Below are positions 10,284-39,079 of a stretch of 45,233 nucleotides of DNA, piece after piece. Numbering within the stretch: position 1 is the first letter of the stretch; every line of letters begins with the position of its first letter. The translations under genes and the position numbers were made by a program. The notes beneath the pieces are model-generated. The model was not told where the DNA came from and did no database searches. It worked only from the letters and a program-made list of their open reading frames with translations. The DNA is from Rhodoplanes sp. (lineage in GTDB: Bacteria > Pseudomonadota > Alphaproteobacteria > Rhizobiales > Xanthobacteraceae): positions 1 to 45,233 of the forward strand of contig NZ_JACAAX010000055.1 in assembly GCF_013377085.1 (NCBI RefSeq), in the 5' to 3' direction.

Positions 10284-10292
10284 ACCGCGGCC

Positions 10293-11051: not shown

Positions 11052-11082
11052 CGCGCATCCTCCGTCGGGTCGGGCCGTCGGG

Positions 11083-12000: not shown

Positions 12001-12013
12001 GATCTGTCCTCTC

Positions 12014-12928: not shown

Positions 12929-13002
12929 CTCTTCTCCTGTCTGTCTTGCGATCCGCGGCGATCGTTCGGCTCTCGGTTTCCGAGCCGCCGGCCGAACGGC
13001 CG

Positions 13003-14007
13003 TTACTCGGGCGCTATCCGTGCATCCTCGACCACCTTCCGCCAGCGCACGCCCTCCTCGCGGACGAACCGGGCATAGTCCTCCGGCGAGGGGCTGGGGT
13101 CTGGGGTCATGGCGAGGTCGGTGTACTGGGTTTTGACTTTCGGATCCTGCAAGGCGCGAACCACGGCGGCGTGGAGGGTCCGCACCGCCGCCGCCGGCGT
13201 TCCGGCCGGTGCCGCCAGTCCGAACCACTGAACCGCGTCGAAGCCCGGCAGCCCCGCTTCCGCCAGCGTGGGGATCTCCGGAGCCGCCGGCGACCGGGTC
13301 GCGCTGGTGACCCCGAACGCACGCAGGCGACCGGCCCGGATCTGCTCGAGCGCGATCGTCAGGTCCGGCACCATGAGGGAGGTCTGCCCCGAGATCACGT
13401 CGGTCAGGGCCGGCTGCGTGCCGCGATAGGGGACGTGCAGCAGCGACACCCCGGTGTCCTGCTGGAACAGCTCGACGATCAGATGCGACAGGCTGCCGGT
13501 GCCGCCCGACCCGAACGCGACCTTGCCGGGGCTCGCCTTGAGATAGGCGAGCAGCTCGCGCAGATCCTTCGCCGGCAGGGACGGATTGCCGACCAGGACC
13601 CCGGGCGCCGTCACGGTTCGGGAGATCATCGCGAAGTCGCGGTCGATGTCGTAAGGCACGGCCTTGAGCACGTAGGGATTGATGACGTGCGACGAGATCA
13701 TGGCCAGCAGCGTGTAGCCGTCCGGCGGGGCCTTCGAAACAGCCTGCGCGCCGATATTGCCGCTCGCTCCCGGACGATTGTCGATCACGATGGCCTGCCC
13801 GAGAATCTCGCTCAGCTTGGGCGCCAGGATGCGCGCCTGCGTGTCGGTGCCGCCGCCGGGCGGCGACGGGACGATCAGCGTGACGATGCGGGTCGGATAG
13901 TCCGCCGCCTTGGCCGGCCGCCCGGCCAGGGCGGCAATGGTCGCCGCGAGTCCGGTCAGGACGCTCCTGCGCGTGCCCCTGCCTTCGAGCCTGAATGTCG
14001 ATCGCAT
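13003..14007 (-). CDS. Bug family tripartite tricarboxylate transporter substrate receptor
   Basis: A 334-residue periplasmic binding protein of the TctC/Bug family, which delivers carboxylates to a TctA/TctB membrane complex. The signal peptide has twin arginines (GTRRSVL, residues 11-17), a hydrophobic core and an AKAA cleavage region near 35-40. Typical Bug landmarks follow: a PPGGGTD-like ligand loop near 50, IDNRPGASGNIG near 75 and the VPYRG segment near 190. ATG 14007 is preceded by GGAG. It is the first gene of the minus-strand operon with two DapA-family genes and an SDR, divergent from a LysR gene. No tctA or tctB is in the window, so it must use a membrane complex encoded elsewhere or serve another role. 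Confidence 0.92.
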   Translation of the reverse strand: MRSTFRLEGRGTRRSVLTGLAATIAALAGRPAKAADYPTRIVTLIVPSPPGGGTDTQARILAPKLSEILGQAIVIDNRPGASGNIGAQAVSKAPPDGYTLLAMISSHVINPYVLKAVPYDIDRDFAMISRTVTAPGVLVGNPSLPAKDLRELLAYLKASPGKVAFGSGGTGSLSHLIVELFQQDTGVSLLHVPYRGTQPALTDVISGQTSLMVPDLTIALEQIRAGRLRAFGVTSATRSPAAPEIPTLAEAGLPGFDAVQWFGLAAPAGTPAAAVRTLHAAVVRALQDPKVKTQYTDLAMTPDPSPSPEDYARFVREEGVRWRKVVEDARIAPE

Positions 14008-14133
14008 CTGCTTCCGCTCCCGGTTAGCGGCCCAGATCACGGATACGGCCGACGGGCGGGCCGTCCGGAGCCGAGTGATTGCGTACGGGACCAGACTAAT
14101 GGATCCTGGCGACTTCGGATGCTTCACTGAGTT

Positions 14134-14149
14134 TCAACTGCAGCATTGA
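14134..14149. promoter_or_regulatory. Possible LysR operator (T-N11-A type)
   Basis: TCAA-N8-TTGA, a short dyad fitting the LysR T-N11-A rule, lies in the 157-bp gap between the divergent LysR gene and the Bug operon, 15 bp before the LysR start. The arms are only 4 bp, so this is a weak call. Confidence 0.3.
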
Positions 14150-14164
14150 CAATGAGGTCCTGCC

Positions 14165-15070
14165 ATCGACCGCCTGCACGGCATCCTGGTGTTCCTGAGC
14201 GTGGTCGAGACCCGCAGCTTCAGCGAGACCGCTCGCGCCCTCGGCGTGACCACGTCCGCCGTGAGCGCGGCCGTGCTGCGGCTCGAGCAGAAGCTCGCCG
14301 TCCGGCTGCTGGAGCGCACCACAAGGCGCGTCGATCCGACCGCGGAAGGCCGTGAATTCTATCAGCGGTGCAAGCGGATCATCGCCGACCTGGAGCAGGC
14401 CGAGATCAGCGTCGCCGGAGCGGCACGCCTGCCGAGCGGTCGGCTGCGCATCGGCATGCCGGCGGCGCTCGCTCGTGTGTGCGTGATCCCGCATTTGCCG
14501 GACTTCACCCGCGCCTATCCGACCGTGTCGATCGAGATCGTGGTCGGGGACTTCCTTCCTGCCCTCAGTCGCGCCGGACTCGACGCGATCATCCATATCG
14601 GCGAGCTGCCGTCATCGAGCATGATCGTGCGAAAGCTCGCCTCGGTTGACTATGTGGTCTGCGCCTCGCCGCAATACCTGGCCGAGCACGGCGCGCCGCA
14701 GACTCCGGCCGATCTCGCGCGGCATGCGTGCCTGCGCTATCGCCGGCCGCGCAATGGACAGATTCGGACGTGGCTGTTCCGGAGCGGGGCGCCTCCCGAT
14801 CTGCCGCTCGCAGCCAAGAGTCTCGTCATGAACAGCGGCGATGCGCTGGTCGCGGCCGCCAAGGCGGGGCTCGGCCTCGCCCAGGTCGCCGAGTACTACG
14901 CCAGAGCGGACTTCCGGAACGGCAGCCTGGTCGAGGTCATGGCGGATCAAAGGGCGCACGCCCACCACGTGTCGGTGGTGTTTCAGCAACGCAAGCGCAT
15001 CGCGCCGCGGCTGCGCGTGTTCATCGACTTTCTGGTCGAGATATTCGAGTCTCCGGCCTGGCGCTGTTGA
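14165..15070 (+). CDS. LysR family transcriptional regulator
   Basis: A 301-residue DNA-binding regulator with an N-terminal winged helix-turn-helix (about 1-60: SFSETARALGVTTSAVS) and a periplasmic-binding-like effector domain (about 90-295). It probably controls the divergent Bug/DapA/SDR operon, the usual arrangement for the family. The start is odd. Family alignment places it at DRLHGILVF, where the codon is ATC (14165), with GAGG 7 nt upstream and an in-frame TGA at 14153-14155. The first canonical start is GTG 14189, which has no ribosome site and removes eight residues of the first helix. I give the ATC start on the strength of the Shine-Dalgarno spacing. Confidence 0.88.
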   Translation: MDRLHGILVFLSVVETRSFSETARALGVTTSAVSAAVLRLEQKLAVRLLERTTRRVDPTAEGREFYQRCKRIIADLEQAEISVAGAARLPSGRLRIGMPAALARVCVIPHLPDFTRAYPTVSIEIVVGDFLPALSRAGLDAIIHIGELPSSSMIVRKLASVDYVVCASPQYLAEHGAPQTPADLARHACLRYRRPRNGQIRTWLFRSGAPPDLPLAAKSLVMNSGDALVAAAKAGLGLAQVAEYYARADFRNGSLVEVMADQRAHAHHVSVVFQQRKRIAPRLRVFIDFLVEIFESPAWRC

Positions 15071-15110
15071 GCACCGGGCTGATGCGGTCGGGGACCGGCG
15101 GGGTCGCAGC

Positions 15111-18273: not shown

Positions 18274-18296
18274 ACCCGGACCGAGCGGCCCCTCCC

Positions 18297-19877
18297 CTAA
18301 GACGGCCGGTAAAGCTGGTCGACGACCTCGCCGGTCCCGTCCCGCAGCAGCAGGTGTGCCGGAATGCCGTCGGGGCGGAGCCGTTCCTTGGGGATCGGCG
18401 AGACATAAGTGCGGCCGTCGACGCGATGGTCGAAATCCGCCCGCACGGCCTTGCGCAGGGCCGCATCCGTCATCAGGTCGAAGCCGACGCCGGCCATGAC
18501 GCGCGCCGAGTCGAGCGACCCCTTGTCGCCGATCGACATGCCGCCGCAGGCCGTGACCGGCCAGGTGTGGAGCCCGACGCCCAGCGGCATCGTCGCCCAG
18601 CCGAACAGGCCGGTCGGCGTGTTGTAGCTGACGTCGCCCACGTCGGTGCCACCGCCGGTCGTCTTCTCCGGCAGCAGCGGCAGGATCGACGTCGCCATGC
18701 CGGCTTCGGGCAGTCCCATTTCCTTCTGGCAGGCGCGGGCGAAGCTCTGCTCCTGATCCGTCCAGGTCATGCCCACCGCTGTGAGATGGCGATGGATGTG
18801 CGAGGCCAGCGGCGCGTTGGGCAGCAGATCGTGGATCCCGAAGGTCAGATCGAACTCGGCCTTTGTCTCGGTCATCAGAGCCGCCCCCTCGGCGATCCGG
18901 CGGACCCAGGCGGTCATCGCCACGACCCGCTGGCGGTCGCTGTCGCGGATCGTCATCCACACCTCGGCATGGTCCGGCACCACGTTGGGGGCGACGCCCG
19001 CGGCCGTGAAGACGTAATGCAGCCGCGCCGTCGGCTGGATGTGCTCGCGCATGAAATTCACGCCGATGGCGAACAGCTCGGCGCCCTTCAGCGCGCTGCG
19101 TCCCTCCCACGGGGCGACGCCCGCATGGGCCGAGCGCCCGGTGAACCGGACGCGGAACATGTCGGCCGCCGCCGTGCGCAGCAGGCCCGTGCCGGTGACG
19201 GGCGTCGGATGCCAGGCGAGGCAGGCGTCGAGATCGCCAAACAGGCCGTCCCGCGCCATGTAGACCTTGACGCCCTCGGTCTCCTCGGCCGCGCAGCCGT
19301 AAACCCGGATGGTGCCCGGCGTCCCGGCGTCCGTCATCATCGTCTTCAGCGCGAAGGCCGCGCCCGTGCAGCCCGCGCCGAGCAGATTGTGGCCGCAGCC
19401 GTGGCCGACCGCGGCGCCGGTCGGCCCGGGGATTTGGCGCGGCTCCGCGGCATTGCCGAGACCGGGGAGCGCGTCGTATTCCGGCAAAAAGCCGATCTTG
19501 GCGCCGCCCGTCCCCTGCGCCCATTCGGCCACGAAAGCCGTGGGGGTTCCCGACGTGCCCGTGCTGACAATCCTGAAGCCCGCGGCGCGCAGCTCGCGCA
19601 GATGAATCTCCGAGGACTTCTCCTCCTTCAGCGACAACTCCGGCGTCGCCCACACCTCGCGCGAGATGCGCAGGACGGCGTCCTTCACCGACTCCACCGC
19701 TTTTCGCGCAGCGGCCGCGGACGGGGGCGGCGGAGCGGGCGGCTCCGCCGCGACGGCGGCCTGCGCCACGGCCGGGCCGGACGCGACCGACACCAGCGCC
19801 GGCGCGCTGCTCATCGCCAGGGACGCGGCCAGGAAATCACGACGCGCGAAACCGGAGGCAGTCTCATCGCCAGCCAA
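18297..19877 (-). CDS. M20 family amidohydrolase with Tat signal (AbgB-like)
   Basis: A 526-residue zinc-type amidohydrolase of the M20D branch, related to aminobenzoyl-glutamate hydrolase subunit B. A Tat-type signal (ARRDFLAAS, residues 11-19) followed by a hydrophobic stretch and AVAQA suggests export; a Pro-rich linker follows. Metal ligands are visible in VGHGCGHN (near 160), EE (near 195) and AWHP (near 222). It would release an amino acid or amine from an N-acyl or peptide-like conjugate in the periplasm. It lies 164 bp downstream of the IclR gene on the same strand and may be cotranscribed with it. Export is unusual for the AbgB group, which is mostly cytoplasmic. Confidence 0.87.
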   Translation of the reverse strand: MAGDETASGFARRDFLAASLAMSSAPALVSVASGPAVAQAAVAAEPPAPPPPSAAAARKAVESVKDAVLRISREVWATPELSLKEEKSSEIHLRELRAAGFRIVSTGTSGTPTAFVAEWAQGTGGAKIGFLPEYDALPGLGNAAEPRQIPGPTGAAVGHGCGHNLLGAGCTGAAFALKTMMTDAGTPGTIRVYGCAAEETEGVKVYMARDGLFGDLDACLAWHPTPVTGTGLLRTAAADMFRVRFTGRSAHAGVAPWEGRSALKGAELFAIGVNFMREHIQPTARLHYVFTAAGVAPNVVPDHAEVWMTIRDSDRQRVVAMTAWVRRIAEGAALMTETKAEFDLTFGIHDLLPNAPLASHIHRHLTAVGMTWTDQEQSFARACQKEMGLPEAGMATSILPLLPEKTTGGGTDVGDVSYNTPTGLFGWATMPLGVGLHTWPVTACGGMSIGDKGSLDSARVMAGVGFDLMTDAALRKAVRADFDHRVDGRTYVSPIPKERLRPDGIPAHLLLRDGTGEVVDQLYRPS

Positions 19878-20041
19878 GATGCCACTCCTTCAGGACCAAT
19901 GCCGATCGTTCTCCTGGCGCGGCATTGCGGCACCACCGCGACGATTCGCGCAACGATCCCCATAGCGACGGCCTTGTCGCCCTCGGTGTGCATCGCCGCC
20001 GGCCCTTGCTGGCTGGCGGATCGGCCGACGGTACGCCGGGC

Positions 20042-20884
20042 CTATGTCCCGCGGCGGCGGAGCGTAACCGCCGATGGCCGCGGCCCTGTGCGGGTTTGCT
20101 TTCGGTTTGCAACGGCGCGGCCCTTCGACGGGCTGCCGACCGTGTCGGCGGCGGTCAACTTTGCGGAAATGTCGGCCGCAACCCGCTTCACCACGGCCGA
20201 CAGGCGTTCGATGTCCGCGCGCGCGCCGGGCTCGACGACCAGGCTCAGGCTCGCGAGGATCTGGTCTCCGCGCAGGATCGGAGCCGCAATGCCCACGCGG
20301 CTCTTGCCGATCTCCGATTTGGTGACGACAAAGCCGTCCTTGCGGATGTCCTGCAGCACGTCGCGGAACTGCTGCCACGACTCGATGCCCGAGGCGCGGA
20401 TGGCGTGCTCGTTGCGCAAATAGATGCCACGCAGCACGCGATCCTGAAGGAAGGACAGCATGATCTTGGCCGGGGCGCCGCGAAACGGCGACATTCCGAC
20501 ACCGCGCTCGTAACTCGCCATGGGGCGTGAGGGCTCGCTCTCGAGGCTGTGAACGCACATGACGCAGTCGCGGAAGCGACGACACAGCAGCACTGCCGCT
20601 CTCCGACCGTAAGCGGCGAGCAGCTCCGCCATGCCGGGTGACGCGAAGCGAATCAACGGATCGCTCTGGCGGATGATCCGGTCGAACCGGATGAATGCGG
20701 GGCCGAGCACGTAGCCTTCCCCTGATCCGGGATCCAGAAAGCCGTTCTGCGTCAGCTCGGCGACCGTCCGATACGCGGTGCGGACCGACACGCCGAGCCT
20801 TTGCGCGATCTCTTCGACTGTCCAGACGGCATCGCCGGCCTCGAACAACTGAAGGACGGACAATACCTGACTCGGTCTGCGCAT
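20042..20884 (-). CDS. IclR family transcriptional regulator
   Basis: A 280-residue regulator with an N-terminal winged helix-turn-helix (about 5-65, VEEIAQRLGVSVRTAYR) and a C-terminal IclR effector-binding domain (about 80-250). A basic tail of about 30 residues follows. It faces the plus-strand MmgE/PrpD operon across a 625-bp gap and lies just upstream of the M20 amidohydrolase gene, so it probably controls one or both in response to a pathway acid. The start codon at 20884 has only a weak ribosome site. Confidence 0.9.
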   Translation of the reverse strand: MRRPSQVLSVLQLFEAGDAVWTVEEIAQRLGVSVRTAYRTVAELTQNGFLDPGSGEGYVLGPAFIRFDRIIRQSDPLIRFASPGMAELLAAYGRRAAVLLCRRFRDCVMCVHSLESEPSRPMASYERGVGMSPFRGAPAKIMLSFLQDRVLRGIYLRNEHAIRASGIESWQQFRDVLQDIRKDGFVVTKSEIGKSRVGIAAPILRGDQILASLSLVVEPGARADIERLSAVVKRVAADISAKLTAADTVGSPSKGRAVANRKQTRTGPRPSAVTLRRRGT

Positions 20885-21509
20885 AGGTTTGGCCCATCGA
20901 GGGATTGCCGCCGTGATTAAAGAACACGACCGGGCCCGTCAAACGCCGTGATCATCGGGCCGCGCGGCGTGTCTCGTCTCCCGTCATCGATGGCCCGACG
21001 AGCCGCCGTGCGCGGAGAGCGTCCCACCCCGACAGCTCCACTCCGGCACACGCGGCGCCGCGGCGTGTTCCTTTGCTCGCCGGCAGGAGCGATTCTGATC
21101 CGTCTGCTGTCGCGGTCTGCTGTCGCGACTCGCGCAGGCGTGCCACGGCGCAAACGGCTTCGGCGAGTGTCCTGACAATGCCCGCTCCGTCACGGGCCGG
21201 CAGAGTCGACATCGTTGGATTCGAGGAGTCCTCGCGGCTTCGCCCGGAAGTGACCGTCGCCCTGATCGGTCGACACTATCTGTCAATTTCTTGTTTTGCC
21301 AGATAGTGTCAATTTTGTTGACGCAGCGCCGCGGTCGTGCGATCGATCGACGCCTCGTGGACGAGAACTTTCGGCCCACTCCCGGCCGCCGGGCCGGCGC
21401 GTTCGGCGGGGCGACTTGGAATTTTCGACTAGGCGACCCGTGCGTCACGCATTGGCGGTCGCCTGTCTCGGGCTGCGGCCTGGGGCGCAAACGAACAGGA
21501 CCGCTGCCG
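20885..21509. other. Long regulatory gap between IclR gene and the MmgE/PrpD operon
   Basis: 625 bp without a supported gene. The frames open on both strands lack starts with ribosome sites and any recognisable domain. The notable part is an A+T-rich segment at about 21270-21325 with strong dyads, entered separately. Confidence 0.5.
21272..21322. promoter_or_regulatory. Candidate operator: 11-bp inverted repeat plus overlapping dyad
   Basis: GACACTATCTG (21272-21282) is repeated inverted without mismatch at 21300-21310, separated by 17 bp. GTCAA-N5-TTGAC (21308-21322) overlaps its right end, and TGTCAATTT occurs twice in the same orientation (from 21281 and from 21307). On the minus strand this gives two TTGACA -35-like hexamers. 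The site lies 188 bp before the MmgE/PrpD start codon. It probably binds the IclR regulator or another repressor; this is inference. Confidence 0.55.
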
Positions 21510-22931
21510 ATGACCCGGGCCTCCGCCGACACGACGGTCGCGCAGACGCTGGGGGCTTTCGTGGCCGACACCGGGCACGATGACGTTCCGCCGTCCGCCC
21601 GCGCGGCCGCCCGCCGCGCGATCGTCGACGGCATCGGCGTCGGCTTCGCAGGCGCGAATATGCCGTTCGCCCGCATGACGCGCGATCAGGCCCTCGCCGA
21701 ATGGCGGGCGGGCCGGTCGAGCCTGATCGGCGTGTCCGGCGTCGCGCTCGTCGCGCCCGGCGCAGCCCACGTCAACGCCGTTGCGGCGCACGTTCTGGAC
21801 TTCGACGCCAATTTCAATGTCGGCATGGTGTTCGCGCCGGCCGTCCTTCTTCCCGCCATCCTGGCGGCCGCCGAGGAGGAGGATGCGCCCGGGGCCGATG
21901 TCGTCACGGCTTTCGCGATCGGGACCGAGGTGGTCCGTGTCCTCGCCGAAGCGCTGTCGGAATCGCCTTACCGCAAGGACAAGGACAGCCTCTTCTATCG
22001 CGGCTGGTTCAACAGCGCGGTTCTCGGCCCGATCGGCGCGGCCGCCGCTTGTGCGCGCATTCTCCGCCTCGATTCGATCCGCGCCAGCCAGGCGATCGCG
22101 ATCGCTGCGATACAGGCCGGCGGTCTGCGCATCGCGGTGGGATCCGACATGAAGCCTGGCCTGGTCGGCCGTGCCGCGGAGACCGGTGTCCGGGCAGCCG
22201 TTCTGGCGAAGGCCGGGGCGCAGGCTCCAGCGGATGCCGTCGAAGGCTTTCGTGGCCTCGTGCAGGTGGTCAACGGCGGACAATGGAATGCGGCCGCCTT
22301 CGCGACGCTCGGACACTTCGCCGACGTCGGCACCTCCTTCAAGGAGTACCCGGCCTGCTCGTCGATTCAGGCGGCGGCGGAAGCGCTCGAACACCTGATC
22401 GACCGTCACGCGATCGATCGCGCCGACATCGTCGAGGTGCGCTGCGACGTCACGAGCCACATCGCCAGCAACCTGACCTTTCCTCGTCCGGATTCGGTGA
22501 CCCAGGCCCAGTTCTCGATGCCGTTCGCCATCGCGTGCATCCTCCTCCACGGCCACTTCACCGCCGACCTGCTGACGGAGGAGACCGTCCGCGATGACGC
22601 GATCCGATCCGTGATGGGCCGGGTGACGATGCACAAGGCCGCGCTGTTCGACGACGACGAGGTCAGCAGGCTGGCGACGGAGGCCACGCGGGTGACCTTG
22701 ACGTTGAGGGACGGCCGCAGCATCTCGCATCTTCAGGCGGCGGCGACCGGAAAACCGACGAATCCGATCTCGGACGAACGGCTGGACCGGAAGTTCCTTC
22801 GCAACGTCGGTCCGCTCCTGGGAGACGGCGGCGGCCGTGCTCTGCTCGCACGACTGCGCGGACTCGACAGCGCGATCCGGGTCCGCGAGCTCTTCGCGGA
22901 AGCGCCCATGCACGAAAGGCTCGAGCCATGA
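21510..22931 (+). CDS. MmgE/PrpD family protein
   Basis: A 473-residue member of the MmgE/PrpD family, which includes 2-methylcitrate dehydratase and cis-aconitate decarboxylase. The all-helical N-terminal domain (about 1-265) includes HVLDFDAN near 90. The C-terminal lid domain contains SFKEYPACSSIQ near 275, a family hallmark including the substrate-binding KxYPxC. ATG 21510 has AGGA upstream; the frame is open to 21291 but the extension is not family-like. It overlaps the next gene by 4 bp (ATGA). It is not accompanied by prpB or prpC, so a methylcitrate-cycle role is unlikely. Confidence 0.9.
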   Translation: MTRASADTTVAQTLGAFVADTGHDDVPPSARAAARRAIVDGIGVGFAGANMPFARMTRDQALAEWRAGRSSLIGVSGVALVAPGAAHVNAVAAHVLDFDANFNVGMVFAPAVLLPAILAAAEEEDAPGADVVTAFAIGTEVVRVLAEALSESPYRKDKDSLFYRGWFNSAVLGPIGAAAACARILRLDSIRASQAIAIAAIQAGGLRIAVGSDMKPGLVGRAAETGVRAAVLAKAGAQAPADAVEGFRGLVQVVNGGQWNAAAFATLGHFADVGTSFKEYPACSSIQAAAEALEHLIDRHAIDRADIVEVRCDVTSHIASNLTFPRPDSVTQAQFSMPFAIACILLHGHFTADLLTEETVRDDAIRSVMGRVTMHKAALFDDDEVSRLATEATRVTLTLRDGRSISHLQAAATGKPTNPISDERLDRKFLRNVGPLLGDGGGRALLARLRGLDSAIRVRELFAEAPMHERLEP

Positions 22932-24058
22932 CCGCCGTGCGAGGAGACAAGGTCGCGATCCTCGGAGCCGGCGCGATCGGCCTGGCGACGGCGGCCGTCC
23001 TGGCCGATCGGGGACATCGGCCCGCCGTCTGGTCGCCCCGAGGGCGAAGCCTCGTGGGCATGCCGCCGACATCGCCGCTCGCGGCGACAGGGGCCCTCGA
23101 CGGGTCTTGGGAGATCACATGCGCCGCCGATCTCCCGACCGCGCTGTCGAGCGCCGACACCATCATTCTGGCACTGGACGCCAACGGGCATGCCGACGTG
23201 ATGGACGCCGTTGCTCCGCTTCTGCAGCCCGGCACCACCGTCATCATCGAGGCGGCGCACTCGCTCGGCGCAGTCTATCTCTCACGTCTTCTCCACGATC
23301 GCGGCATCCGCCTTCCGGTCGTCTCCTGGAGCACGGCGATCGCCACGGCGCACCGCACCGGACCGCTCACCGTCGATATCCGCACGATCCGGCCACGCAT
23401 CGACGCGGCGGTCATGCCGGGCGACATGCGCGACGCCGGGATCGCCACCTGCCGAACGCTGTTCGGTGACCGGTTCGCGACGAGAACCGATGCGCTCGCC
23501 ATCGCGCTTCTCTCGAACTGCAACCCGATCTTCCACGTCCCGGTCTGTCTCCTGAACGTCTCGCGCGTCGAGCACGGCGAAACATGGGCGCCTTACGGCC
23601 ACACGACACCGTCGGTCGGCCGGTTGATGGAAGCCCTGGACCGGGAACGGATCGCGATCGGCGCCGCCTTCGGGCACGAGATCCACAGCGTGAACGAGCA
23701 CTTTCATCGATCCTTCCGCATTCCGCTGGGGTCGATGGCCGAGATGAACGCCACGCTCTTCGCCGCCGGGCGCGGCCCGCGCGGCCCACGCGACATCGCG
23801 CATCGCTATTTCGCGCAGGACATCTCGTACGGACTGGTGTTCGCCGCCGCGATGGCGCGCTCGGCGGGCATCGCGGCTCCCCTCCACGAGGCGACGATCG
23901 ACCTGGCGTCGGCGGCATTGGGCCGGGACTTCACCGCCGACAACACGCTCATCCCGTTGCTCGGACTGCAGGGACTCGATCGTGACGACGTTCTGAAGCG
24001 TGCCTCGGAAGGATACTTTCCCACGACCTCCCAGGGCAACGAGCGGCCCTTGCCATGA
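22928..24058 (+). CDS. Octopine/nopaline dehydrogenase family protein
   Basis: A 376-residue NAD(P)-dependent enzyme. The N-terminal Rossmann fold has GAGAIGLA (13-20). The C-terminal helical domain resembles the opine dehydrogenase family, with a conserved His/Asn region (NPIFHVP near 200) and a long HEIHSVNEHFH segment. Family members reduce the imine formed between an amino acid and a keto acid, or run the reverse reaction during opine breakdown. It is translationally coupled to MmgE/PrpD (ATGA overlap). Clustering with an exported amidohydrolase and a carboxylate receptor suggests catabolism of an N-substituted amino acid; this is inference. Other enzymes of this superfold, such as ketopantoate reductase, are less likely given length. 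Confidence 0.83.
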   Translation: MTAVRGDKVAILGAGAIGLATAAVLADRGHRPAVWSPRGRSLVGMPPTSPLAATGALDGSWEITCAADLPTALSSADTIILALDANGHADVMDAVAPLLQPGTTVIIEAAHSLGAVYLSRLLHDRGIRLPVVSWSTAIATAHRTGPLTVDIRTIRPRIDAAVMPGDMRDAGIATCRTLFGDRFATRTDALAIALLSNCNPIFHVPVCLLNVSRVEHGETWAPYGHTTPSVGRLMEALDRERIAIGAAFGHEIHSVNEHFHRSFRIPLGSMAEMNATLFAAGRGPRGPRDIAHRYFAQDISYGLVFAAAMARSAGIAAPLHEATIDLASAALGRDFTADNTLIPLLGLQGLDRDDVLKRASEGYFPTTSQGNERPLP

Positions 24059-24194
24059 CGTTCCGGCAAACCGTCTGCGCCGTTCTCGCAGGACCACCAC
24101 GAGGCACGCCGCACAGGCACCTCTCTTCGACTGTCAGGTCGTCCGGGACATGCAGTGCGCCCGCGCTGCGCACCATCGCAAAAGGAGAACGACG

Positions 24195-25175
24195 ATGCGA
24201 CGACGCAGCTTCCTGATCGGCGGCGGCATGACCCTGGCGAGCGCGCTCGCCAGACCGGCCGTGCATGCGCAATCGGCTTGGCCGCACGGCCAACCGATCC
24301 GCATGGTCGTGCCGTTCCCGGCCGGTGCGGGCGTCGACGGCATGGCACGACTCGCCGCCGAGCGCCTGCAGGACAAGCTCGGCGCCACTATAATCGTCGA
24401 GAACCGCCCGGGCGGCGCAGGCGTGGTCGGCACGACCGCGGTGATGCAGGCGAAACCCGACGGGTATACGCTGCTCGGCTCTGCCATCAATCACGTCGTG
24501 TTGAACTTGGTTCTGCGCGGCGCCACCTTCGATCCGCAGAAGGATTTCGAATGCGTGGCGCGAACCGCCAGCGCCCCGCTGGTGATGGTCATAGCGCCGC
24601 AGCGACCCGAGCGGACGCTTACCGAGATCCTCGAGTCAGCCAAGCGCGCTCCCAAGGAGTGGACCTTTGCGGTCCCCTCGCTCACAGCGCCCGCCCATCT
24701 GGCGGCCATCGATTTCATGCGCCGGACGGGCGTGAAATTCACCCTTGCGTACTATCGCGGCGCCGCTCCGGCCCTGACCGACGTGCTCGGCGGGCACGTC
24801 CAGTTGATGGTCGATTCCGCGTTCACGATGGTGCCGGCGGCGCTCGACGGCAGGCTCCGCGCGATCGGCGTCACCTCACGCCAGCGCTCACCCTTGGCGC
24901 CGCAAATCCCGACCATGATCGAGGCCGGTGTGCCCGATTTCGTCGCGGATTCCTGGTACGGCATCTGGGCGCCCAAGGGCACGCCGGTGGACATCCGCCA
25001 GCGCATCAACGACGTCATGCGCGAAGCGATGGCCGATCCCGAAATCGTCAAGAAGCTGCAGGGCTGGTTTCTCGAACCGGTGGCGGAATCGATCGACCAG
25101 ACGGAGACCTTCATCGCCGGTGAGGTGCCGCGTGTGGTCGCGCTGCTCAAAAGCGTCGATTTCCAGCCTCAATAG
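24195..25175 (+). CDS. Bug family tripartite tricarboxylate transporter substrate receptor
   Basis: A 326-residue periplasmic binding protein of the TctC/Bug family. The signal peptide starts MRRRSFLIGG (Tat-like) with cleavage likely after HAQ near 26. The ligand loop PFPAGAGVD near 40, VENRPGGAGVVG near 70 and the YYRGAAPALTD segment near 190 match the family. ATG 24195 is preceded by an excellent AAAGGAGAA. It lies 136 bp after the opine-dehydrogenase-like gene in the same direction and probably belongs to the operon. No tctA/tctB accompany it. It is only distantly similar to the receptor at 13003-14007, so the two clusters import different acids. Confidence 0.92.
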   Translation: MRRRSFLIGGGMTLASALARPAVHAQSAWPHGQPIRMVVPFPAGAGVDGMARLAAERLQDKLGATIIVENRPGGAGVVGTTAVMQAKPDGYTLLGSAINHVVLNLVLRGATFDPQKDFECVARTASAPLVMVIAPQRPERTLTEILESAKRAPKEWTFAVPSLTAPAHLAAIDFMRRTGVKFTLAYYRGAAPALTDVLGGHVQLMVDSAFTMVPAALDGRLRAIGVTSRQRSPLAPQIPTMIEAGVPDFVADSWYGIWAPKGTPVDIRQRINDVMREAMADPEIVKKLQGWFLEPVAESIDQTETFIAGEVPRVVALLKSVDFQPQ

Positions 25176-25508
25176 CGCCGCGACAGCGACGCGGTGACTC
25201 TGATCACCGAGCGGACCCATCGGTTGGCGATCAATGCGGACGACTCGGGGCCGCGACTGCCCTCCGGCACCATCCGGACGACGGTCGAGGTCCGTGTCGC
25301 GGCGGCTGACGGGGGCGTAGCCGACCTTCGCCTGAAGCCGCGAGCTTCGGCGTCTTATGCGAACGCGGACTGATGCAGCGAAGCCATCCACCGGATGATC
25401 GGCAGGCGTTGGTCTCCAGCGCTTCCGTTATTGTGAAATACGGAAGTCGACGATCGATCGAGTGTCGGTAATTCAATCGGCTATCAAGCCAACATCGACC
25501 ATCGGTTG
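25176..25508. other. Intergenic region between convergent receptor gene and polA
   Basis: About 330 bp without a supported gene. The 3' half is less GC-rich than its surroundings and contains a dyad (CTTCCGT at 25422-25428, ACGGAAG at 25440-25446, 11-bp spacer) that looks like an operator. No adjacent start codon explains it. It may be left over from a removed gene. Confidence 0.45.
25422..25446. promoter_or_regulatory. Orphan operator-like dyad
   Basis: Seven-base perfect arms CTTCCGT/ACGGAAG around 11 bp. Dyads of this TTCCG-N-CGGAA kind are used by many regulators, IclR types among them. It sits between two convergent genes, where a promoter is not expected, so function is uncertain. Confidence 0.3.
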
Positions 25509-25545
25509 AAAATCAGCTTCCAGCCGCTGCGCGACCGAAGCTGAT
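25509..25545 (-). terminator. Probable terminator of polA
   Basis: On the minus strand ATCAGCTTC (25545-25537) pairs perfectly with GAAGCTGAT (25520-25512) around a 16-nt loop, and the stem is followed by TTTTC. It begins 17 bp after the polA stop. Confidence 0.55.
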
Positions 25546-25562
25546 CCAGCGCTCCGGGTGCA

Positions 25563-28500: not shown

Positions 28501-28607
28501 GCCGCCTTGAACATGGCGAAATAGGCGCGGAACACGAAGGACGACCCGTCGATCAGGAAGACGTGGTCGCCCTTGCGGAGCGGGCGGGCGAGCGGTTCGG
28601 CGGACAT
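25563..28607 (-). CDS. polA: DNA polymerase I
   Basis: A 1014-residue family A polymerase for Okazaki-fragment processing and gap repair. The 5'-3' nuclease domain (about 1-310, LIDGSSFVFRAYF) is followed by a Pro/Ala-rich linker, the 3'-5' exonuclease-like domain (about 410-600) and the polymerase domain. Motif A DYSQIELR, motif B (RRRAKAINFGIIYG) and motif C VHDE are intact. The proofreading site is degenerate. ExoI reads DIV (430-432) where the family has DTE, ExoII has GHDLKAD where Asn is expected, and ExoIII reads YCAEQ, so the last Asp ligand is Gln583. Polymerase and 5' nuclease activity should remain; proofreading is probably lost. Single gene with its own terminator. Confidence 0.97.
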   Translation of the reverse strand: MSAEPLARPLRKGDHVFLIDGSSFVFRAYFAMFKAAQSRGRAFTRSDGLPVGGVMAFCNMMWKLLREGLDGVNPTHMAVVFDYSGKTFRNDIFSDYKGHRPEPPDELIPQFPLMRDAVRAFGLIPIEQEGFEADDLIATYARVAREAGADVTIVAGDKDLMQLVRDGVLMYDPMPGNERRIGRDQVIEKFGVPPEKVPDVQALIGDPTDNVPGVPGIGVKTAAQLIGEYGDLDALLARAGEIKQEKRRQTLLDNADTALMSRRLVLLDDHVDVACPLDDLLLDGRDATKLIAFLKAMEFSTLTRRVAEALAIDPNDIEADPVLRANASVDASAGAPAAAGEPVGESAPAPRRAGASGQLGFDLGDTRPPPAARPNGGGAIVVTPEALAASRKDELSKQKLDRTGYAPIGDVATLEKWIAAATDQGFVALDIVTTSSDPMRADLVGLALALAPGRAAYVPLGHRRGDDLLEGGGLFPGQVDLGEALARLEPMLESPGVLKIGHDLKADLHALMRHGIEAVAIDDVQLMSYVLDAGIAPHGLADLAHRHFGHEALALADIAGKGKAQVPFEQVEISRACPYCAEQADMALRLWRLFRARLVAEHMTTVYETLERPLVPVLMRMERRGIAIDREILSRLSGELAQKAAALEDEVQKLAGEPFNLGSPKQLGDILFGKFGLSGGKKTKTGAWSTSANVLDELAEQGHVLPVKLLEWRQLTKLKSTYTDLLPTFVNPQTRRVHTTFALAATTTGRLSSADPNLQNIPVRTEEGRKIRRAFVARPGTKLVSADYSQIELRLLAEIADIPALKTAFSEGIDIHALTASEMFGVPVAGMPAEVRRRAKAINFGIIYGISAFGLANQLGIPREEAGAYIKRYFERFPGIRDYMEATKLFCRTHGYVATLFGRKCHYPDIGASNPSLRAFNERAAINARLQGTAADIIRRAMVRMEGALAAAKLTARMLLQVHDELVFEVPDGEVEKTLPVVTRVMEQAAMPAVALSVPLHVDARAADNWDEAH

Positions 28608-28794
28608 GCAGGACTCGGGGCTACGGAATCGGGCCCCGAACTATACACTCTCGGCCGGCTGCGCCAGTCCACTGCACCAAGGGGCCGGCGTCTTTGGGAC
28701 GACAATGCCGAAGCCGGCGTCGTCTCGCCCGTATCTCGTCCGTCTTCGCGAGCCGGCGCTCGCCTCGATCGGGAAGGCGCCGAGACGAGGGGCG

Positions 28795-29076
28795 CTATCG
28801 GCCGGGCTGTGCCTTCCAGAAGCCTTCCGCGTATCGCAGGGCGACCAGCAGGATGCCCGAACCGGCCGCGGCCGTGATGGCCGGCCCGATCAGCTTCACC
28901 GGAATCTGCACGCCGTAGCGACGGGCAAGCCAGGTGCCGGCCAGAGCGCCGACGATGCCGACAAAGACATCGCCGATCAGATCGAAGCCGAGGCCGCGTC
29001 CGATGCTGTTGGCCCACCAGCCGACCAAAACGCCGACGAGCAGAATGACGACGGTACTCTCACCAGAAATAACCAC
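28795..29076 (-). CDS. GlsB/YeaQ/YmgE family small membrane protein
   Basis: A 93-residue protein with three hydrophobic segments (about 8-27, 32-50, 60-82) and the glycine-rich pattern of the transglycosylase-associated family (GLGFDLIGDVFVGIVGA). Family members are stress-linked inner-membrane proteins of unknown mechanism. The start is GTG at 29076, preceded by GGAGG at 6 nt; the open frame continues upstream to 29184, but without a ribosome site. It lies upstream of polA on the same strand (187 bp). Confidence 0.8.
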   Translation of the reverse strand: MVISGESTVVILLVGVLVGWWANSIGRGLGFDLIGDVFVGIVGALAGTWLARRYGVQIPVKLIGPAITAAAGSGILLVALRYAEGFWKAQPGR

Positions 29077-29356
29077 GTAAGCCTCCGTTGCCTTTTCGAG
29101 TCGCGAGAAACGTCCAGCAGACATGAGGACGTCCGGCGGCGGCCTGGGTCCTGGTTCTATACTCTGCGGTGCAGGGCAATCCACGATACCCGATGGAGAA
29201 CCGCGTGACGCCTTACCCGCAAGGCCAATGGACCGGCCACGCCATGCAGGGGGCGAAATTCCCCCTGCGCCTGCGCGAACGGTCCATCAGCAACCGTATT
29301 GCATCGTCGTCGAAGTCAGCGTCCCGGCTGCAATGGCCGGCCGAGGTTTCGACGAC
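29077..29356. other. Gap between GlsB-type gene and pucA
   Basis: The region holds a TATACT -10-like box on the plus strand (29158-29163) and a perfect 8-bp hairpin (GCAGGGGG 29246-29253, CCCCCTGC 29261-29268). A 59-codon plus-strand frame (29193-29372) is open, but it lacks a ribosome site and any known domain, so I do not call it as a gene. Confidence 0.4.
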
Positions 29357-29386
29357 GACGCCGGGCCAGTGACCGACCCCGGCGTC
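29357..29386 (-). terminator. 3' hairpin of the pucBA transcript
   Basis: A perfect 9-bp stem (GACGCCGGG/CCCGGCGTC) with a 12-nt loop begins 4 bp after the pucA stop codon. There is no T-run after it, so it may be a 3' stabilising hairpin or a weak terminator. Confidence 0.5.
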
Positions 29387-29390
29387 GATG

Positions 29391-29570
29391 CTACTTCTTC
29401 ACGACCTTCTCGGCGGCCGTCTTATCGTTGATGAAATTGTAGCGCGGATTGTTGAGGACGAAGGAATGCACGGCGATCGCGACGAGCAACGCCACGATCC
29501 AGATGACCGGAAGCCACGTCGACGGGTTGATGACCTGCCAAATCTTGTAGTCGTCTGCCGGGTTAGCCAT
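29391..29570 (-). CDS. pucA: Light-harvesting complex 2 alpha subunit
   Basis: A 59-residue single-span antenna apoprotein that binds bacteriochlorophyll in the intracytoplasmic membrane. It closely resembles the alpha chain of Phaeospirillum molischianum LH2 (NPx[24 protein letters not shown]). Without the initiator Met, Asp6 matches the B800 magnesium ligand of that complex and His34 the B850 ligand. Residue 45 is Phe where molischianum has Trp45, the hydrogen-bond donor to a B850 acetyl group. AGAGGA lies about 9 nt before ATG 29570. The gene starts 17 bp after pucB. No pucC, puf or bch gene is near. Confidence 0.93.
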
Positions 29571-29587
29571 AATCTATTTCCTCTCGC

Positions 29588-29728
29588 TCAGAACCAAGGC
29601 TTCCAGGCCCACACCAGCACGTGTGCGAGCACGGCGATGACGACGAATGCACTGAACGTCGTCTTGAATTGATTGTGGAACTCGATCGCTTCCGCTTCCG
29701 TCAGGCCGGACAGGCTTCTCTCTGACAT
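29588..29728 (-). CDS. pucB: Light-harvesting complex 2 beta subunit
   Basis: A 46-residue single-span antenna apoprotein, partner of the alpha chain in the B800-850 ring. It matches the molischianum-type beta chain: ERSLSGLTE, HNQFKTTFSAF, AHVLVWAWKPWF. Without Met, His17 and the B850 ligand His35 are kept, as is Trp44, the second acetyl hydrogen-bond donor. The WxWKPWF end resembles LH1 beta, a known trait of this LH2 type. GAGGG lies about 7 nt before ATG 29728. It is first in the pucBA operon, the standard order. The gene is easily missed because it is short. Confidence 0.94.
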   Translation of the reverse strand: MSERSLSGLTEAEAIEFHNQFKTTFSAFVVIAVLAHVLVWAWKPWF

Positions 29729-29783
29729 CGGGATACCCTCTATGGTTTGCCGTAAACAATCCTTCGCAATGTCTTCGCTGCGG

Positions 29784-29852
29784 TCATGTCGTGACGACTC
29801 CGTCGCGACATCTTTTTCGACCGGAAAGGCCGCGATGCAATTCGACGCTCAT
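29784..29852 (-). CDS. Putative 22-codon leader ORF of pucBA
   Basis: ATG 29852 has GAGGT 6 nt upstream. The frame runs 22 codons to TGA at 29784, 55 nt before the pucB start. Its last eight sense codons coincide with the hairpin at 29787-29810, so translation would open that structure. No similarity is recognised. The support is ribosome site plus position only. Confidence 0.35.
   Translation of the reverse strand: MSVELHRGLSGRKRCRDGVVTT
29787..29810 (-). promoter_or_regulatory. Hairpin in the pucBA leader
   Basis: Ten-base arms (29787-29796, 29801-29810) pair with one mismatch around a 4-nt loop. On the plus strand it is followed by TCTTTTTC, so it could also terminate plus-strand transcription, but no plus-strand gene ends here. 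On the minus strand it lies about 58 nt before pucB. Confidence 0.5.
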
Positions 29853-29978
29853 ACCGCTACCTCGACGGCGAACCAGCCAGGGAGATACGTCGATGATCGT
29901 CCGTCGAAAATACCGAATTAGTCGCTTCGACAATGCTTGGACCGGCAAGAGTTGCATCGCACCGCCGCGAATATCCGA

Positions 29979-30022
29979 TGTATAGCGATCCTGACAGGCC
30001 CGACTGTCAACAACGATGAAAA
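29979..30022 (-). promoter_or_regulatory. pucBA promoter with PpsR/CrtJ-type sites
   Basis: A perfect TGT-N12-ACA palindrome (29979-29996), the known target of the photosynthesis repressor PpsR/CrtJ, is followed after 8 bp by a second copy with one mismatch in its ACA half (30005-30022, TGT-N12-AAA). On the minus strand they overlap TTGACA (30010-30005, -35) and TATACA (29984-29979, -10). The 20-bp spacer is longer than ideal. A start near 29972 would give a leader of about 240 nt before pucB. Confidence 0.6.
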
Positions 30023-30099
30023 CGTAACTCCGCGGGCCTATTTGCCGTCGTTCCGGGGCATTACAGGACCGTCCGGGCGACGATGGCGCCGCCGGGCGC

Positions 30100-30486
30100 T
30101 CACTCGATCCAGGCGCCGCACGCGACGAGCAGCTCGCGCAGCACGCCGCGATGGCAGTGCGCCTCGTCCCCGCAATAGCAGCCGATCGAGACATTCGCGC
30201 CGTGCGACAGGGTGGCGAGCAGATCGAGGAGGTGTTTCGGCGTCGGCGCCGCCATCTCGGCCCGGAAGGCGCGCGTGAAGGCCTTCCATTCGGCGGTCGT
30301 CGCCGCCGCATGCGCCTTCGCCATCAACGGCAGGCTCGGCGCGAGCTCGGGAAGCCAGACGTCGAACCAGTTCTCCGCCGCGTAATCCTCTTTCCGCACG
30401 CCGCGCGGCGGCCGGCGCACCGTCCCGATCCGGGTCCCTTCCTGCGCGAGGCGCGGCGTCCCGAGGCGGACGACTCGAAGGGCCAT
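30100..30486 (-). CDS. DUF488 family protein
   Basis: A 128-residue cytoplasmic protein with the DUF488 features: an N-terminal RLGTPR strand-turn and the C-terminal cysteine/histidine cluster GCYCGDEAHCHR (near 102-113), which could bind a metal. Function is unknown for the family. The gene lies 36 bp downstream of the acyltransferase gene on the same strand, so the two may be cotranscribed. Confidence 0.83.
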   Translation of the reverse strand: MALRVVRLGTPRLAQEGTRIGTVRRPPRGVRKEDYAAENWFDVWLPELAPSLPLMAKAHAAATTAEWKAFTRAFRAEMAAPTPKHLLDLLATLSHGANVSIGCYCGDEAHCHRGVLRELLVACGAWIE

Positions 30487-30522
30487 CGGAGGTTCCTCTG
30501 CCCGGGGTCGACGCGTCGGCGC

Positions 30523-31575
30523 CTACTCGGCCGGCTGCAGGCGGCCGCCGGCGGGCGCGCGGCGGAGCACGAGATGCGCCCAGTCGGGCCGCGTGAACAG
30601 GAAGGCGAAGCGGGTGTTGCGGACCACCCACCACATCGCCATCGCCCCGGCGATGGCGGCCGCCGTGACGATCAGCGACACCGCCCCGACGCTGTCGATC
30701 ACGCCGGTGTGGAGCAGCACGGCGCGGGTCGCCGCCATCGGCAGGAAGAAGGCGAGATAGACCACGATCGAGTGCTCGCCGCAGAACCGGATCGGCGCGA
30801 ACACCCAGGCCTTGGCGAGGAGCACCGACAGCACGATCACGGCACAGGCGCCGGCAAAGCCGAGCGCGAGCGAGACCAGCGGCAGGTCGGAGTAGCCGCC
30901 GAACACCAGCGCACCGTTGACCAGCGCCCACACAGTGAGGCCCGCGAACGCCGCCAGCGGGCGCGCCGACGCCGCCTCGGCCATGGCGAACACGCGGGGC
31001 GCGAGCAGGAAGCCGGTGTAGAAGTAGACGAAACGGGCAGCGAACTCATCCGGCACGGTCCAGCCGGTGTGGATCGGCGCGATCTCCAGCGCAGCCGCCA
31101 CCAGCCACAGGGCGAGCGGCGGGATGCGGAGCTGGCGGGCCGCCTTGGTCACCACGAAGAAGATCGGCAGCATATAGATGAACCACAGCGTCCCGAACGG
31201 CTCGATGAAGGCGAGCGCATACTGGCCCGGCACGCCGGCCCAGCCGTGCTCGGAGGCGAGCCCCGGCGCCTTCACGACGAGCTGGATGGTCATCCACAGC
31301 AGATAGAAATAGGCGAAGTGGATCACCTTGCGATCCGTGTAGGTGCGCCAGTCGCGGTCGATCACGCGCGCCAGGAACAGGCCGGAGATCAGGAAGAAGT
31401 CCGGCATGCGGAACGGTTTCGCGAACGCCACGAAAGCGTGCATGAAGCCTTCGCCGCCGACCGCCAGCTCGACCCCGAAGGTCGAGTGCAGCATGACGAC
31501 CATGATGATGCAGACGCCCTTGGCGGTGTCGACCCAGTCGATCCGGGCGGCGTCGGTGGGCACGGGGGTTGCCAT
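30523..31575 (-). CDS. Acyltransferase 3 family membrane protein
   Basis: A 350-residue inner-membrane protein with about ten helices, of the family that O-acetylates or O-succinylates surface glycans. The N-terminal signature WVDTAKGVCIIMVVMLH includes the conserved His near 30, and the MPDFFLISGLF segment near 58 is typical of the fucose 4-O-acetylase/OpgC-like group. The substrate is not indicated by neighbours: a DUF488 gene follows and hrpB is divergent. Confidence 0.87.
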   Translation of the reverse strand: MATPVPTDAARIDWVDTAKGVCIIMVVMLHSTFGVELAVGGEGFMHAFVAFAKPFRMPDFFLISGLFLARVIDRDWRTYTDRKVIHFAYFYLLWMTIQLVVKAPGLASEHGWAGVPGQYALAFIEPFGTLWFIYMLPIFFVVTKAARQLRIPPLALWLVAAALEIAPIHTGWTVPDEFAARFVYFYTGFLLAPRVFAMAEAASARPLAAFAGLTVWALVNGALVFGGYSDLPLVSLALGFAGACAVIVLSVLLAKAWVFAPIRFCGEHSIVVYLAFFLPMAATRAVLLHTGVIDSVGAVSLIVTAAAIAGAMAMWWVVRNTRFAFLFTRPDWAHLVLRRAPAGGRLQPAE

Positions 31576-34415: not shown

Positions 34416-34650
34416 CCTCTCCCCGCGTGCGTTTCAGGATGCACACATCTCGTATTGTCGAGGCAGTTCGCGGTTTGGCAGGGAGCGACCTCACCCATCG
34501 GCGTCATCGCCGGGCTTGACCCGGCGATCCATCGTTCTGCTAAACAAGTCTTCTTGCGAAGCAGGATGGATGCGCGGGTCGAGCCCGCGCATGACGATCT
34601 CATGCATGGCAAGCGATGTGTGCATCCCGTAGAGCGCACGCGGGGAGAGG
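34416..34650. repeat. Nested palindromic element (235 bp)
   Basis: Outer 16-bp perfect inverted repeats (34416-34431, 34635-34650), then inner 13-bp perfect inverted repeats (34437-34449, 34615-34627), enclose about 165 bp that contain a complete copy of the 90-bp composite palindrome (34503-34595). It begins just after the hrpB stop codon. No transposase. It looks like one intergenic repeat inserted within another. Confidence 0.75.
34503..34595. repeat. Composite palindromic repeat, copy A
   Basis: GTCAT and ATGAC bound the copy. Inside are hairpin 1 (CGCCGGG/CCCGGCG), a middle stem ATCCATC/GATGGAT and hairpin 2 (GCGCGGG/CCCGCGC). It shares its plan with copies at 35310, 38991 and 40343. 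Confidence 0.8.
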
Positions 34651-37214: not shown

Positions 37215-37266
37215 CACGCGATCACACCGACTCTGATGGCTGGAGCAGAGCGCTGCCCCGGCCTGC

Positions 37267-37368
37267 TCCCTCCCCCCTTGTGGGGGAGGGCTGGGGAGGG
37301 GGGTAACCCCACTCTCCGGCGCAAGCGTCCACCCCCCTCCCTGTCCCTCCCCCACAAGGGGGGAGGGA
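37267..37368. repeat. Palindromic element between the two mutase genes
   Basis: Perfect 24-bp inverted repeats (37267-37290, 37345-37368), each itself a hairpin (CCCTCCCCC/GGGGGAGGG), enclose inner 11-bp inverted repeats (37294-37304, 37331-37341). The strands are strongly C- or G-biased. The total is 102 bp, with no coding capacity. It resembles intergenic repeats common in Hyphomicrobiales genomes. Confidence 0.8.
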
Positions 37369-37469
37369 ACGCAAGAGGACGGTCACGTCATCACGAGAAG
37401 CCCGGGGTCGTGTGGATCATCGATCTGCCGAAATTCGAGATCGGGTGCTCGTCTGAGAAGAAGGTCCCC

Positions 37470-38969: not shown

Positions 38970-38990
38970 GACTGTCAAGACCTCCGACTC

Positions 38991-39079
38991 GTCATGCCCG
39001 GCCTTGTGCCGGGCATCCACGTCTTTTCTGAATTTCAACGAACAAGAACGTGGATGGCCGGGACAAGCCCGGCCATGAC
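38991..39079. repeat. Composite palindromic repeat, copy C
   Basis: GTCAT/ATGAC ends, hairpin 1 GCCCGGC/GCCGGGC, middle stem ATCCACGT/ACGTGGAT and hairpin 2 GGCCGGG/CCCGGCC. All stems pair perfectly. Confidence 0.85.

Follow-up and report, generated by a model that had tools for sequence, protein, structure and literature searches.

The window, by which we mean the whole 45,233-nucleotide stretch analysed here, i.e. the entire contig C51 of a Rhodoplanes species, contains a real and intact LH2 operon encoded by two adjacent genes. We consider it likely that this pucBA pair is a working extra operon of the species, which was duplicated or relocated together with its promoter and leader, is controlled by PpsR and encodes an 820-type ring. 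The two genes, identified from their ORFs and from Pfam and PDB matches, are:

29588-29728, minus strand: pucB, LH2 beta chain of 46 aa, ATG start
29391-29570, minus strand: pucA, LH2 alpha chain of 59 aa, ATG start, Phe at alpha-45

Identity of the pair

The genes were read in the order beta then alpha, separated by 17 bases, with both frames intact and a ribosome-binding-like sequence 5' of each start. A preceding sequence-only reading had reported complete beta (46 aa) and alpha (59 aa) genes at 29391..29728; its coordinates were exact and both genes were found intact. The four pigment ligands that it listed, Asp6 and His34 of alpha and His17 and His35 of beta, numbered with Met removed, were all present on direct reading of the translations. 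Alpha Asp6 is presumably the B800 bacteriochlorophyll ligand, and alpha His34 and beta His35 those of the inner-ring pair. Both chains matched the Pfam family LHC (PF00556) above its cut-off of 23 bits, with 31.4 bits for pucA and 40.7 bits for pucB. Searches against the PDB returned as top matches the LH2 chains 7tuw_A for pucA (E 1.3e-23), which is named B800-820 alpha, and 7tuw_N for pucB (E 1.7e-21), values that exclude chance; chains of 8fb9 and 1lgh followed little behind. We take 7tuw to be from Phaeospirillum (Phs.) molischianum as well. Entry 1LGH is the LH2 of that organism, as given in the available part of PMC9618040.

A protein tree was computed from 61 rows of joined beta and alpha chains with 106 usable columns, after removal of 10 duplicate rows. 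The 18 LH2 pairs of five Rhodoplanes genomes formed one clade (support 96/93), next to which stood six Magnetospirillum (Phaeospirillum) molischianum/fulvum rows (90/94, joining branch not starred), and LH1 chains formed a separate group of 18 rows (97/67). A third group contained seven LH2 pairs from six genomes of Rhodoplanes' own family, presumably of the Rhodopseudomonas (palustris) type, and covers a selection of the family's LHC matches. The deeper order of the tree is unsure owing to the 106 columns and the long branches that meet at its root. The best PDB matches and the tree position bear out the earlier assignment to molischianum-type LH2, as opposed to the Rhodopseudomonas type. Judged from the sequences, the name is correct, yet the pair is typical of its genus: the sequence-only reading had named a grouping with the ordinary LH2 of close relatives as evidence against itself, and such a grouping is seen inside Rhodoplanes but not with the LH2 pairs fetched from the family's other genera. 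A contig search found relatives of the alpha chain at 13 loci; R. serenus, R. elegans and R. tepidamans each contributed two of the six closest. At 1e-5, the alpha chain had no match in 396 other genomes of the order, a sample that evidently did not include the other Rhodoplanes.

The NCBIfam models pufA_517_ASD and pufB_517_ASD both scored above cut-off for the pair, which, following their name, would be a misplaced LH1 operon (pufBA). We regard this reading as barely credible and rejected it on three grounds. Both models also claim an alpha and a beta chain of Magnetospirillum molischianum that fall in the LH2 clade, plus chains of the host C47 and C28 pairs, and are therefore non-discriminating; the tree places the pair apart from LH1; and pufBA, together with pufLM, sits on contig C35. 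As a separate observation, NF040861 and NF040862, described as LH1 alpha and beta, claim LH2-clade chains of both Rhodoplanes and Magnetospirillum molischianum, so that names assigned automatically in these genera may be wrong. The present analysis thereby flags the naming of Rhodoplanes LH2 chains as LH1 by NCBIfam.

Genomic setting and route of arrival

The host genome (6.48 Mb, 89 contigs, 99.6% complete) yielded 12 LHC matches arranged as six pairs, on C35, C47, C51 (the window), C28, C26 and C34. The C35 pair is pufBA beside the reaction-centre genes, and the remaining five are LH2 pairs on five contigs. C35 carries two reaction-centre genes (pufLM), two PUCC-family genes and two ppsR genes above cut-off, and PUCC and reaction-centre matches were confined to it, the other LHC matches being located on other contigs. 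A PUCC match is unspecific by itself, with 8 of 14 control genomes exceeding the cut-off, whereas the ppsR cut-off was exceeded in none of 14 control genomes. Within the window, 29 coding-like ORFs of at least 70 aa were picked by codon-position G+C, a procedure that short or oddly composed genes might escape; no photosynthesis family was found among them in Pfam, one ORF having no family at all. Linkage to pufLM was likewise not found, these genes being on C35 and none occurring among the scanned window ORFs.

The statement that no pucC, puf, bch or crt gene lies within the 45 kb agrees with these 29 ORFs, and the pair indeed sits outside the photosynthesis cluster, given that the reaction-centre genes, PUCC genes and pufBA are all on another contig. 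A check that had been proposed, whether the genome has photosynthesis genes and other puc pairs, was answered positively on both counts (C35, and four more pairs on four contigs). The suggestion of a transferred or dispersed operon survived in its second half, with five LH2 pairs on five contigs, and lost ground in its first, as the pair falls inside the genus-wide Rhodoplanes LH2 clade. The term "orphan" is weakened for the same reason, and both terms also because the alpha chain shares Ser35 solely with the two other Phe-45 pairs of the host genome.

Flank comparison revealed three LH2 loci that share their flanks across genomes: locus 1 (host C47, elegans C184, tepidamans C32 and genome G009), locus 2 (host C26, tepidamans C7, serenus C48, elegans C280 and G009) and locus 3 (host C34, tepidamans C4 and elegans C305). 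The window pair and the host C28 pair lie outside all three. A neighbourhood common to these two and the other Rhodoplanes LH2 loci was rejected, as neither gave a flank match; cross-locus matches outside the window pair were limited to short repeats (46-101 bases) and, at distances above 4 kb, two weak matches of 67-70% over 216 and 387 bases. Stretches of 46-101 bases at 34498-34596, 37261-37377 and 38983-39079 of the window recur on other contigs of the host and in related genomes and are likely dispersed repeats; the comparison covered only light-harvesting and photosynthesis loci, so their nearness to LH2 loci is meaningless so far. The C28 pair (L015:9664-10009) is a second extra LH2 pair, with Tyr at alpha-45 and a poor match to the common promoter described below. 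In R. tepidamans, relative to which it is therefore extra, 95 bases separate the flanks; about 1.7 kb lie there in R. serenus and R. elegans and about 5.4 kb in G009.

The window pair is located between polA and a DUF488 gene, in a region with the following features:

28668-30098, no strand: stretch with the pair, 1431-1483 bases, narrow in three relatives (flank comparison)
28795-29121, minus strand: ORF inside the stretch, weakly like transglycosylase-associated (PF04226) proteins (20.7 bits, cut-off 25.3)

The polA-DUF488 gap measures 84-140 bases in the three readable relatives, R. serenus, R. tepidamans and R. elegans, versus 1431-1483 in the window, the ends of the stretch differing by no more than 50 bases among the three comparisons. 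Mapping of this empty site in three relatives is new. Genome G009 is unreadable here, since its polA match stops at a contig edge, and genome G119 (58% complete) gave no match at the polA site. In a polA+hrpB tree, the host is nested within the group of the three empty-site relatives, which makes one gain simpler than two losses.

Divergence was calculated over 105 codons, which makes the dN/dS figures rough. Against its nearest paralogue, host C47, the window pair showed dN 0.07 and dS 0.74, whereas the host copies of loci 1-3 differ from their counterparts in other species by dS 0.16-0.64; comparisons with serenus C11a, which is not a positional counterpart, gave higher values (0.65-0.94). 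The third-position G+C of the window pair is the lowest among the 18 pairs (0.83 vs 0.88-0.95). By these estimates, the window copy is not very recent, and recent duplication is disfavoured because it predicts neither the dS of 0.74 nor the lowest third-position G+C. The dN/dS of about 0.1 against the nearest paralogue indicates purifying selection on the pair. This value, the intact frames, the kept ligands, the ribosome-binding-like sequences and the kept operator argue against a decaying, unexpressed copy, for which a weaker promoter match and the lower third-position G+C could be adduced and which we deem very improbable. High dS would also fit the old age of a pair that was ancestral at the polA site. 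That history requires at least two losses, one by R. serenus and one by the tepidamans/elegans line, versus one gain on the polA+hrpB tree, with G009 and G119 unreadable at the site, and we judge it quite improbable.

As to the source of the gain, the window pair joined host C47 in the joint DNA tree (89/91, not starred). Alpha Ser35 is confined to the host genome's three Phe-45 pairs, the other 15 Rhodoplanes pairs lacking it, a restriction that favours descent, exchange or duplication within the host lineage. A literature search for gene conversion of pucBA found no paper. In a tree of the beta gene (144 columns), the window beta fell outside the other 17 Rhodoplanes betas (93/87), in disagreement with the alpha tree, and owing to its 144 columns this tree was not built upon.

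Transfer of the pair and its companion PF04226-like ORF from an unsampled Rhodoplanes-like donor would be compatible with the beta-only placement, with the absence of the stretch from three relatives, and with the high dS and lowest third-position G+C. It would also fit the dip in G+C, which is 0.55-0.62 over 29150-30199 and mostly 0.65-0.74 around it, with 0.69 at 28700-29000, and the companion ORF, whose DNA has merely short weak matches elsewhere in five Rhodoplanes genomes (51-98 bases, 69-80%). Against a donor stand the proximity to host C47 in the joint tree, the confinement of Ser35 to the host's own Phe-45 pairs and the lack of alpha-chain matches in the sampled order. No mobile-element gene was found among the three ORFs scanned in the stretch, nor a common word of 7-14 bases between the junctions at 28591-28720 and 30031-30130. 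We therefore consider transfer unlikely. Under the preferred reading, a duplication or relocation in the lineage of this species would have brought the operon to the polA site together with its promoter and leader.

Two further blocks of the window vary among relatives. One, at 10270-15109, with SDR, two DHDPS-family, TctC and LysR genes, is absent from the two relatives whose compared stretch extended that far. The other, at 18274-25561, with peptidase-like, IclR, MmgE/PrpD, octopine-dehydrogenase-like and TctC genes, is absent from four of four relatives.

Promoter, operator and transcript structures

Three features flank the coding sequences:

29975-30027, minus strand: LH2-type promoter with tandem PpsR-like operator (matrix from ten other Rhodoplanes sites)
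29788-29809, minus strand: leader hairpin with an 8 bp stem, 5' of pucB (leader alignment)
29356-29387, minus strand: strong stem-loop right after pucA, without a T run (folding of 29300-29400)

A promoter matrix of 53 columns was derived from ten other Rhodoplanes LH2 promoters, the window site not being included. The window promoter, 299-247 bases upstream of pucB, scored 39.3 bits and ranked first of 90,362 positions, the next reaching -1.7. The promoter was present at 16 of the 18 Rhodoplanes LH2 pairs, and this common promoter, defined by sequence, is a new finding; it was lacking at host C28 (2.3 bits, rank 1 in its locus), at elegans C47 (-19.8) and at host pufBA. The window score is below that of 14 of the 15 other sites, and its -10 region departs from TAGCAT, which is found in 10 of 16.

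The window operator reads TTT-N12-ACA, 8 bp, TGT-N12-ACA and overlaps TTGACA, its second site being exact and its first not. All 16 sites fit T[AT][TG]-N12-ACA, 8 bp, [TC]GT-N12-AC[AG]; exact TGT-N12-ACA occurs in 8 of the 16 second half-palindromes, and an exact TGT in none of the 16 first ones. Across the genome, this pattern had five exact matches, of which four belong to LH2 pairs and the fifth lies beside a gene for 5-aminolevulinate synthase, and the reversed control had none. Because the four host sites were known when the pattern was written, its informative aspect is limited to its rarity elsewhere. According to the accessible portion of PMC4452267, the PpsR consensus is TGT-N12-ACA, with natural variants containing CGT or ACG, and tandem PpsR sites of Rubrivivax (Rvi.) gelatinosus are 8 or 9 bp apart, binding at pucB extending over -35 and -10. 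By comparison of these motifs, the window pair is probably a PpsR-regulated operon. The genus-wide LH2 promoter, some 0.3 kb upstream, would drive transcription, with PpsR, for which C35 carries two genes, as the repressor. An FNR-type pattern, TTGA[TC]-N4-[AG]TCAA, was absent from 19 leaders of 400 bases.

Two observations concern other contigs. The operator pattern at L127:1501-1531 (host C15) lies about 40 bases upstream of the gene scored as 5-aminolevulinate synthase, on the opposite strand. Just beyond the locus 1 pucBA of host C47, at L014:10850-12540, there are two tandem LuxR-type regulator genes, the first preceded by a promoter-like site with one mismatch and the second with a PAS domain above cut-off.

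The leader hairpin was observed in an alignment of 17 of 19 leaders, in which 98.4% of 127 cells were paired and 6 cells were changed on both sides, a count that is conditional because the eleg_C47 and sere_C11a leaders were excluded by eye for want of a clear hairpin. It is also found 5' of host pufBA. In controls, further pair types were no better than shuffles (212 of 500 reached the same number), and a slide of -3 gave a covariation score of 0.183 versus 0.199. The window leader by itself is no stabler than shuffles (z -0.22). The evidence for the hairpin is thus modest, given related rows, two excluded leaders and a window leader that is not unusually stable. Downstream, the region 29300-29400 folds with -52.8 kcal/mol (z -4.17), and an Rfam search of 28600-30600 found nothing at E up to 1.

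At locus 2 of all five genomes, a reading frame that stays open into pucB begins 222-225 bases ahead of it and encodes a conserved peptide of some 44 residues (MKDFKFNEDVVGWARP...). It was placed at L016:8218-8442 (host C26), with matching places in L068, L065, L071 and L072. Over 44 codons, dN was lower than dS in 10 of 10 comparisons; no Pfam match was found at 0.01, and a single PDB match reached only E 0.37. A leader peptide is one possible interpretation, an extended beta chain another.

Predicted spectral class and known systems

Of the 18 Rhodoplanes pairs, 10 have Phe at alpha-45, 5 have His and 3 have Tyr, and each of the five genomes combines Phe-45 with either Tyr-45 or His-45. The beta C-terminus follows the same division, with Trp-Phe in all ten Phe-45 pairs and Trp-Tyr in the eight others. 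Among the PDB chains, that with Phe at 45 is named B800-820 and that with Trp B-800/850. In B846 of Phs. molischianum, alpha-Trp45 and a beta-Trp bond are described, and the loss of hydrogen bonds at alpha 44/45 is tied to blue shifts, as far as the accessible part of PMC9618040 goes. Phe at alpha-45 thus implies one missing hydrogen bond to the inner-ring pigments, which predicts a blue-shifted LH2; by analogy, the window pair is predicted to be an 820-type LH2. A review ascribes an 800-820 nm complex to Rhodoplanes tepidamans in its available text (PMC12654162), and of the pairs in the genome of this species, two are Phe-45 and one is His-45.

In the mechanism that we propose, PucB and PucA would be single-span membrane proteins that associate in pairs and build a ring antenna like that of Phs. 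molischianum. The B800 bacteriochlorophyll would be bound by alpha Asp6, and the inner-ring pair by alpha His34 with beta His35. Phe-45 would cost one hydrogen bond, the beta Trp44 bond being able to remain, such that the inner ring would absorb near 820 nm and not 850 nm, which would be useful in dim or filtered light. More tentatively, and in our judgement less likely than not, promoter, leader and pucBA may form a compact mobile cassette, with three loci kept and lineages adding copies at fresh sites (C51, C28). Switches at alpha-45 among Phe, Tyr and His would then produce a species-specific LH2 palette, and the molischianum-type ring would have been gained separately from the family.

Phs. 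molischianum belongs to another order than Rhodoplanes. Its LH2 (Phaeospirillum, or Magnetospirillum, molischianum) resembles the window pair in chain lengths, ligand residues, PDB matches and neighbouring clade; the window pair has Phe at alpha-45, like the chain named B800-820 and unlike that named B-800/850, and differs in its C-terminal tail. The Rhodoplanes chains also fall in another LH2 clade than the pairs fetched from their own family. Rhodopseudomonas palustris pucBA (LH2, LH3 and LH4) is alike in that several operons occur per genome, spectra are tuned by residues and pucBA content varies between close strains, in the portions available of PMC5069747 and PMC9618040. Several pucBA operons being known from Rhodopseudomonas (PMC5069747, available part), the kind is already known. 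The Rvi. gelatinosus pucB promoter, as presented in the accessible text of PMC4452267, similarly has tandem TGT-N12-ACA-like sites over the core promoter, at a spacing of 9 bp versus 8 bp for the putative window operator. The available text of PMC10569730 covers the Rhodoplanes photosynthesis cluster and does so without "puc" or "LH2", and within the partially accessible literature on Rhodoplanes LH2, puc or antenna, no description of these operons was found.

What is new is that the molischianum type occurs across five Rhodoplanes genomes, that the empty site has been mapped and that most of the pairs have a common promoter. These details widen the range of molischianum-type LH2 to a genus of another order, with five genomes, and offer a clean example of an antenna operon, probably regulated, at a site mapped as empty in three relatives. 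Copy by copy, the Phe/Tyr/His split at alpha-45 predicts the absorption of each LH2 within one cell.
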